From NCBI GenBank assembly GCA_030602565.1, contig JAUVZL010000004.1:1-64000 (forward strand): a stretch of 64,000 nucleotides of DNA. The letters run 5' to 3'. Shown here one piece after another: positions 28,943 through 29,726 of this stretch (its first letter is position 1; each line of letters opens with the position of its first letter). Under the pieces are notes generated by a model that had not been told where the DNA came from, did no database searches, and saw nothing but the letters and a program-made list of their open reading frames with translations. Origin of the DNA: Candidatus Stahliibacteriota bacterium. GTDB lineage: Bacteria > Hydrothermota > Tepidihabitantia > SM23-42. Both the position numbers and the translations under genes were made by a program.

Positions 28943-28970
28943 TTGACAAGTATGTCATTTTAATTATAAT
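28943..28970 (+). promoter_or_regulatory. Consensus promoter of the split tRNA gene (TTGACA-N16-TATAAT)
   Basis: TTGACA 28943-28948 and TATAAT 28965-28970; tRNA starts 28979. Confidence 0.85.
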
Positions 28971-29012
28971 AGCACGATTCCTCGGTAGCTCAACGGTAGA
29001 GCATCCGGCTGT

Positions 29013-29306
29013 AACAAAAGCAGCTTCCACGAGAAATCGTGGTTGAAAAATCGGGTGAATTCAGGGAAGCCTAAGTTCTGATTTTTGTCATTGCGAGCGC
29101 GAGCGAAGCAATCTCATATTGGAATATGGTAATCCTGAGCCAAGCCCCGCACTTTTGATAAAAGTGCGGGGAAGGTGCAGAGACTATTCCGTAAGGAAGT
29201 ACTTTTCGCTCAGTGCGGAAGGGAAGCGCCCGATCCCGCAATACCGGTAATAATTCGGTATCGGGAATGAGATAGTCCATTCTCTGATGAAAATCAGAGG
29301 TCAATG
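29013..29306 (+). other. Group I self-splicing intron (IC3-like) in tRNA-Asn between anticodon nt 35 and 36
   Basis: P1: exon GCTGT (29008-29012) pairs with IGS GCAGC (29020-29024), giving the u.G wobble at the 5' splice site; last intron nt is G (omega-G). Core matches remembered tRNA group I introns: TTCAGGGAAGCCTAAG, AATCCTGAGCCAAGCC, GGAAGGTGCAGAGACT, GATAGTCC. P2 (29027-29042) and P9 (29282-29299) hairpins carry GAAA tetraloops. Confidence 0.95.
29086..29128 (+). repeat. Dispersed palindromic repeat-like segment in the P5 region of the intron
   Basis: TTGTCATTGCGAGCGCGAGCGAAGCAATCTC plus CATATTGGAATATG hairpin; ATTGC/GCAAT stem. Confidence 0.6.
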
Positions 29307-29447
29307 TAACCGGAGGGTTGCAGGTTCGAATCCTGCCCGAGGAGTTATTATTTCTCTTAACGAGGGTAGTGAGTTTAGAGAAATATAATCTCGAATCCCG
29401 TGATAACGGGTGAGAGATACCTTTTTGAAACTCTGTTTAAACAAATA

Positions 29448-29726
29448 ATGGCAAAGATAATCCCACAACCTTGGTTTGTCTATATTGTTGAATGCAAAGA
29501 TAAATCACTTTATGTGGGGATTACTACAGAAATTGAAAAGAGAATCAATGACCACAATTCAGGAAAAGGTTGTCACTATACTAAATACAGAAAGCCCGTT
29601 AAGCTTTTATTCTATGAAAAACATAAGAACCGCAGTTCAGCAGTCAAAAGAGAGCTGGAGATCAAAAAATTCAGCAGAGCGAAGAAGTTTGATCTAATAA
29701 AGAATGATTTCTTGAGTTGCAAATGA
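29448..29726 (+). CDS. GIY-YIG domain protein (UPF0213-like)
   Basis: WFVYIVECKDKSLYVGITTEIEKRINDHNSGKGCHYTKYRKPVKLLFYEKHKNRSSAVKRELEIKKFSRAKK; ATG at 29448 preferred to 29400. Confidence 0.9.
   Translation: MAKIIPQPWFVYIVECKDKSLYVGITTEIEKRINDHNSGKGCHYTKYRKPVKLLFYEKHKNRSSAVKRELEIKKFSRAKKFDLIKNDFLSCK

Follow-up and report, generated by a model that had tools for sequence, protein, structure and literature searches.

A group I intron inside the anticodon of the apparent sole tRNA-Asn gene of a Stahlbacteria (WOR-3) genome

The interrupted tRNA-Asn gene and the fold of its intron

The window (the whole 64,000-nt stretch of DNA that was analysed) belongs to contig C93 of a Stahlbacteria (WOR-3) draft genome of 2.74 Mb. 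Positions 28979-29344 hold a tRNA-Asn(GUU) gene with a group I intron of 294 nt inserted between U35 and U36, and a neighbouring gene shares 96-97% identity with its counterpart in two Candidatus Stahlbacteria (WOR-3, Stahliibacteriota) MAGs. The features of the locus are as follows.

28943-28970, + strand: sigma-70-type promoter match TTGACA-N16-TATAAT, 12/12 consensus bases, predicted from the consensus match only
28979-29012, + strand: tRNA-Asn 5′ exon, up to position 35 (ARAGORN with introns)
29013-29306, + strand: group I intron, 294 nt, final base omega-G at 29306 (RF00028, 94.2 bits; ARAGORN; covariation)
29020-29024, + strand: P1 3′ strand, or internal guide, GCAGC, which pairs with exon GCUGU with a U.G at the splice site (invariant in 18 introns)
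29087-29115, + strand: dispersed-repeat copy (GTCATTGCGAG...GAAGCAATCTC) in loop L5, missing from the closely related intron L033
29182-29186, + strand: P7 5′ strand GACUA, with the 3′ strand at 29273-29277 (invariant in 18 introns)
29187-29222, + strand: P7.1 and P7.2 hairpins, between the P7 5′ strand and the P3 3′ strand (covariation; inserted relative to the RF00028 consensus)
29307-29344, + strand: tRNA-Asn 3′ exon, running from U36 to discriminator G73 and lacking an encoded CCA (ARAGORN with introns)
29448-29726, + strand: gene with a GIY-YIG endonuclease domain, outside the intron (PF01541, E 1.3e-20)

When introns were allowed, ARAGORN read a complete tRNA-Asn(gtt) with a 294-nt intron inserted at 35-36 and the junction gctgt|taacc, and after in silico removal of the intron it drew a cloverleaf with paired stems and a GUU anticodon. 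Neither ARAGORN run without introns nor the Rfam tRNA model detects the gene. The Rfam group I model RF00028 matches positions 28951-29299 over its full length at 94.2 bits (gathering score 50, E 5.7e-23), and this is its sole match in the whole genome. These results bear out the initial annotation, which had proposed a tRNA-Asn(GTT) host, a group I intron placed inside the anticodon at 35|36, and a perfect consensus promoter. An equal promoter arrangement is found 5′ of the related tRNA-Asn gene at locus L033.

We assessed the fold by covariation in an alignment of 18 introns from which L1 had been trimmed, using a model drawn from the window intron that comprises P1-P9 with the P3/P7 crossing, plus P7.1 and P7.2 (76 pairs counted). 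Pairing is retained in 91.8% of pair cells across the alignment, and two-sided changes are seen at 45 of the 76 pairs. None of 500 shuffles attains the observed pairing values, and pairing falls to 33-45% when the partners are slid by 1-3 columns. All helices from P1 to P9 and the P3/P7 pseudoknot could be placed; P3 and P7 are unbroken in the 18 introns and P4 is 97.8% kept. P1 and P7 are invariant and therefore yield no covariation evidence of their own. The finer elements named in the initial annotation are likewise present: the P1 pairing GCUGU/GCAGC, with a U.G at the 5′ splice site that is invariant in the 18 introns, the omega-G as last intron base, and two GAAA tetraloops, which cap P2 and P9. 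The hairpins P7.1 and P7.2 both covary, with UUCC/GGAA of P7.1 swapped for GAGC/GCUC in relatives; P7.1 as drawn does not form in the four introns of host family f37. The minimum free energy of the window intron gives z = -6.2 against shuffles. Taken together, covariation in the 18 aligned introns supports the group I fold, including P7.1 and P7.2, which are absent from the Rfam consensus. The core strings GAGCCAAG, GUGCAGAGACUA and AUAGUCC match those that we take to be characteristic of IC3 tRNA introns, with P7.1 and P7.2 setting the window intron apart from the presumed IC3 layout, and on these sequence features it is probably an IC3-like group I ribozyme of the tRNA-intron type.

The repeat pattern found in L5 occurs in three copies in the genome, and its absence from the L033 intron means that it was gained or lost after the two introns split. 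A repeat family of the form GTCATTGCGA...GCAATCTC is present in L5 of four further introns (L053, L057, L060 and L073) as well as that of the window, and spans several genera. Another insert, a palindrome of about 40 nt, occupies the anticodon loop of a tRNA-Gly(TCC) on another contig (L030/L048, G000:C98:955-1067); since an intact tRNA-Gly(TCC) is present on C72, the C98 copy is probably a pseudogene into which a repeat has inserted.

Distribution in cellular genomes and viral contigs

The wider distribution was determined in 394 sampled genomes, 148 of the phylum and 246 of other phyla. A tRNA-Asn intron at the same 35|36 site is present in 19 of the 148 (18 introns read whole, that of G091 split across two contig ends), and 4 of the 246 carry tRNA-Asn 35|36 introns of 248-260 nt (G233, G247, G358 and G388). 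One host gene, L063, was called tRNA-Leu by ARAGORN and reads as tRNA-Asn from its splice junction; RF00028 matches in G034, G067, G072 and G122 lie inside 23S rRNA genes and were excluded from the count. Within genera g1, g10 and g79 the presence of the intron is patchy. The congeneric close relative L032, which has the same neighbourhood, carries an uninterrupted tRNA-Asn with near-identical exons; around this intact gene (c3243-3316), and beside a second GIY-YIG-like ORF, lies a broken tRNA-Asn 5′ piece whose D-loop region contains a repeat.

Scans of IMG/VR viral contigs with a sequence pattern and with the HNH protein described below gave, among the matches listed, at least about 20 contigs with tRNA-Asn 35|36 introns, mostly of 183-226 nt, and also a few tRNA-Lys introns. 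Seven viral introns (L094, L098, L179, L188, L206, L207 and L242) score above the RF00028 gathering score, and the remaining viral tRNA-Asn introns were recognised from core strings and exon pairing only. The L094 contig carries a serine recombinase and may be an integrated element. Searched as DNA against phage and plasmid records, the window gene had no match, and a viral intron probe matched named phages mostly beside or inside protein genes. Two phage tRNA genes with other inserts were also seen. In Gordonia phage Daredevil (NC_048021, about 41.8-42.1 kb; L294) an unannotated tRNA, tRNA-Lys by ARAGORN, contains a 238-nt group I-like insert near an integrase gene, and in an uncultured 595-kb phage (LR756511, about 409 kb; L301) a tRNA called Leu(TAA) is interrupted by 700 nt that include group I core strings and what looks like an HNH ORF.

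In the intron tree, the cellular introns and viral L179, L242 and L094 fall on one side of a 99/99 branch, and inside this group the branches between host families are weakly supported. Inheritance from a common ancestor with repeated loss and no horizontal spread would agree with the clustering of WOR-3 introns by host family (f1+f2, f33 and f37) and with an AU test that does not reject a single WOR-3 clade (p 0.22). We nevertheless regard such purely vertical descent as unlikely, given the patchiness within genera, the presence of introns at the same site on viral contigs and the clustering of the other-phyla introns with those of f1+f2, the support for which (85/92) is not strong. Any direction of transfer between phages and hosts would be presumptive, the deep branches of the tree being weakly supported.

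Endonuclease genes in and beside the intron

Three related introns, L053 (G090), L054 (G078) and L306 (G091), contain in L1 an intact ORF of 115 codons, the final 20 or so of which overlap ribozyme strands P1 to P4, with the stop codon in P5. Pfam assigned no family to the encoded protein, and we call it HNH from the motif CxxC...EFHH...CANCHREVH and from the annotation of its phage relatives. Differences among intact copies fall mainly at third codon positions (e.g. 16, 11, 56), and the one computable pair gives dN 0.16, dS 1.8 and dN/dS of about 0.09, so selection seems to act on the protein. Decay of the gene is evident in at least five genomes, with remnants in G137, G145, G076, G143 and G144; by locus, it is frameshifted in L055, present as recognisable fragments in L056, L061, L063, L064 and L065, and reduced to a short leftover in L059. 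In the window intron L1 measures 7 nt and the HNH gene is gone, and no HNH relative was found in the window's own genome. Relatives of the protein are encoded on 80 viral contigs (L095-L173 among IMG/VR), where nearly all of them sit by tRNA genes, for the most part within phage tRNA clusters; as a raw proportion, a tRNA gene lies within the flanks in 78 of the 80.

The GIY-YIG gene of the window, about 100 nt downstream of the tRNA-Asn, has similar genes next to tRNA-Asn at five related loci, of which one is intronless. In six loci such a gene lies 110-180 nt 3′ of tRNA-Asn, and small GIY-YIG genes are found near tRNA-Asn in several WOR-3 loci with or without an intron (the window, L032, L050, L054, L062, L064 and L093). 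The GIY-YIG gene was considered as a candidate for the intron's own nuclease and set aside. Such a gene also lies near the intronless tRNA-Asn genes of L032 and L093, which weighs against continued mobility in trans, in which the downstream GIY-YIG protein, or the HNH protein of a co-infecting phage (collaborative homing), would move the intron. The 110-180 nt spacing of the GIY-YIG gene from tRNA-Asn at the six loci would suit this mechanism, as would viral L098, where the intron-bearing tRNA-Asn is closely preceded on its 5′ side by a free-standing HNH gene. However, most intron-bearing loci have no GIY-YIG gene inside the examined flanks, and we consider mobility in trans improbable.

Copy number, history and significance

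The 44 tRNA matches in the genome, all identified, cover the other 19 amino acids and include no second tRNA-Asn. This supports the initial annotation's view of the gene as probably the essential copy; with the assembly at 96% completeness, a gap could still hide an intact tRNA-Asn. We extended the survey to the sampled genomes with a sequence pattern for intact tRNA-Asn that allowed 3 mismatches and required the GTT anticodon. Within WOR-3 the pattern was found in 0 of 19 intron-bearing versus 98 of 129 intronless genomes (the 98 tallied by hand), with a Fisher p of 7e-11 that is only a guide, because related genomes are not independent. Adding the four genomes of other phyla, it was found in 0 of 23 intron-bearing genomes. 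Because not every tRNA-Asn gene is caught by the pattern, the 98 is a minimum, and an intact copy of unusual sequence could go unseen. G078, G086 and G087 are single-contig genomes in which the pattern found no intact copy, so that the absence is not merely an assembly gap. From this we infer that the window tRNA-Asn gene is essential. The draft state of the assembly (104 contigs) leaves slight room for a dead or dispensable gene, with an intron that no longer splices and another tRNA-Asn serving the cell, but the lack of such a tRNA both among the 44 matches and by pattern in the 23 genomes, the retention of core helices P3, P4 and P7 with covariation in the remainder, and the full consensus promoter make this very improbable indeed.

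We are confident that the window holds a formerly homing IC3-like group I intron, now without its endonuclease, which is retained because it splices from the sole tRNA-Asn. Judging from its relatives, the intron would have arrived as a homing element whose HNH protein, encoded in L1, would cut empty tRNA-Asn anticodons. Comparison with those relatives shows that the HNH gene is gone from the window intron, leaving the 7-nt L1, and that L5 holds a dispersed repeat. In the pre-tRNA, an external guanosine would attack just 3′ of U35, which forms the U.G pair of P1, and U35 would then attack after omega-G, so that the anticodon is joined as GU|U and a normal tRNA-Asn results. Splicing of the window intron is thus a prediction from its sequence, as is homing by HNH cleavage of intronless tRNA-Asn. 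We propose that the intron persists because the cell's decoding of Asn codons depends on its splicing. A broader scenario is plausible, if somewhat short of probable: a tRNA-Asn-specific mobile group I family, with its own P7.1/P7.2 and a tRNA-specialised HNH protein, may circulate between phage tRNA arrays and the chromosomes of several phyla, repeatedly seizing the sole tRNA-Asn.

The window intron presumably shares with the bacterial IC3 tRNA introns, namely those of cyanobacterial tRNA-Leu(UAA), Azoarcus tRNA-Ile(CAU) and Agrobacterium tRNA-Arg(CCU), a group I ribozyme in the tRNA anticodon loop with a U.G in P1 and GAAA-capped P2 and P9. It differs from what we take to be the IC3 arrangement in its tRNA-Asn(GUU) host, the 35|36 site, P7.1/P7.2 between P7 and P3, and the HNH gene in L1 of its relatives. 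Like the cyanobacterial tRNA-fMet intron with I-Ssp6803I, it belongs to an anticodon-loop group I family of sporadic distribution in which some members bear an endonuclease. Unlike that intron, its host is tRNA-Asn and its family's nuclease is HNH, from which I-Ssp6803I differs in nuclease fold. With phage protein-gene group I introns that carry HNH or GIY-YIG nucleases, the family shares nuclease-armed and presumably mobile members, and its HNH proteins have phage relatives.

Bacterial group I introns have been described in fMet and Ile2 tRNAs (PMC8450103) and in Arg and Leu tRNAs (PMC4853749), and short inserts of 22-49 nt have been claimed for Arg, Gly and Lys tRNAs (PMC5733544). Our search of the open-access literature (5.39 million papers), which is weak evidence of absence, found no report of a tRNA-Asn group I intron, in keeping with the initial annotation, which had called an Asn host unusual beside the named hosts Leu, Arg, Ile and fMet. 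The results thus extend the host range of bacterial group I introns to tRNA-Asn, and in 23 genomes from several phyla the intron appears to interrupt the only such gene. They also show viral contigs with group I introns in their tRNA genes, whereas the phage introns known at the time of a 2014 review were all in protein genes (PMC3984707). Because tRNA finders run without introns miss the interrupted gene, such genomes would be listed as lacking an Asn tRNA. Finally, the HNH protein offers a direct route to testing homing into an essential tRNA gene.
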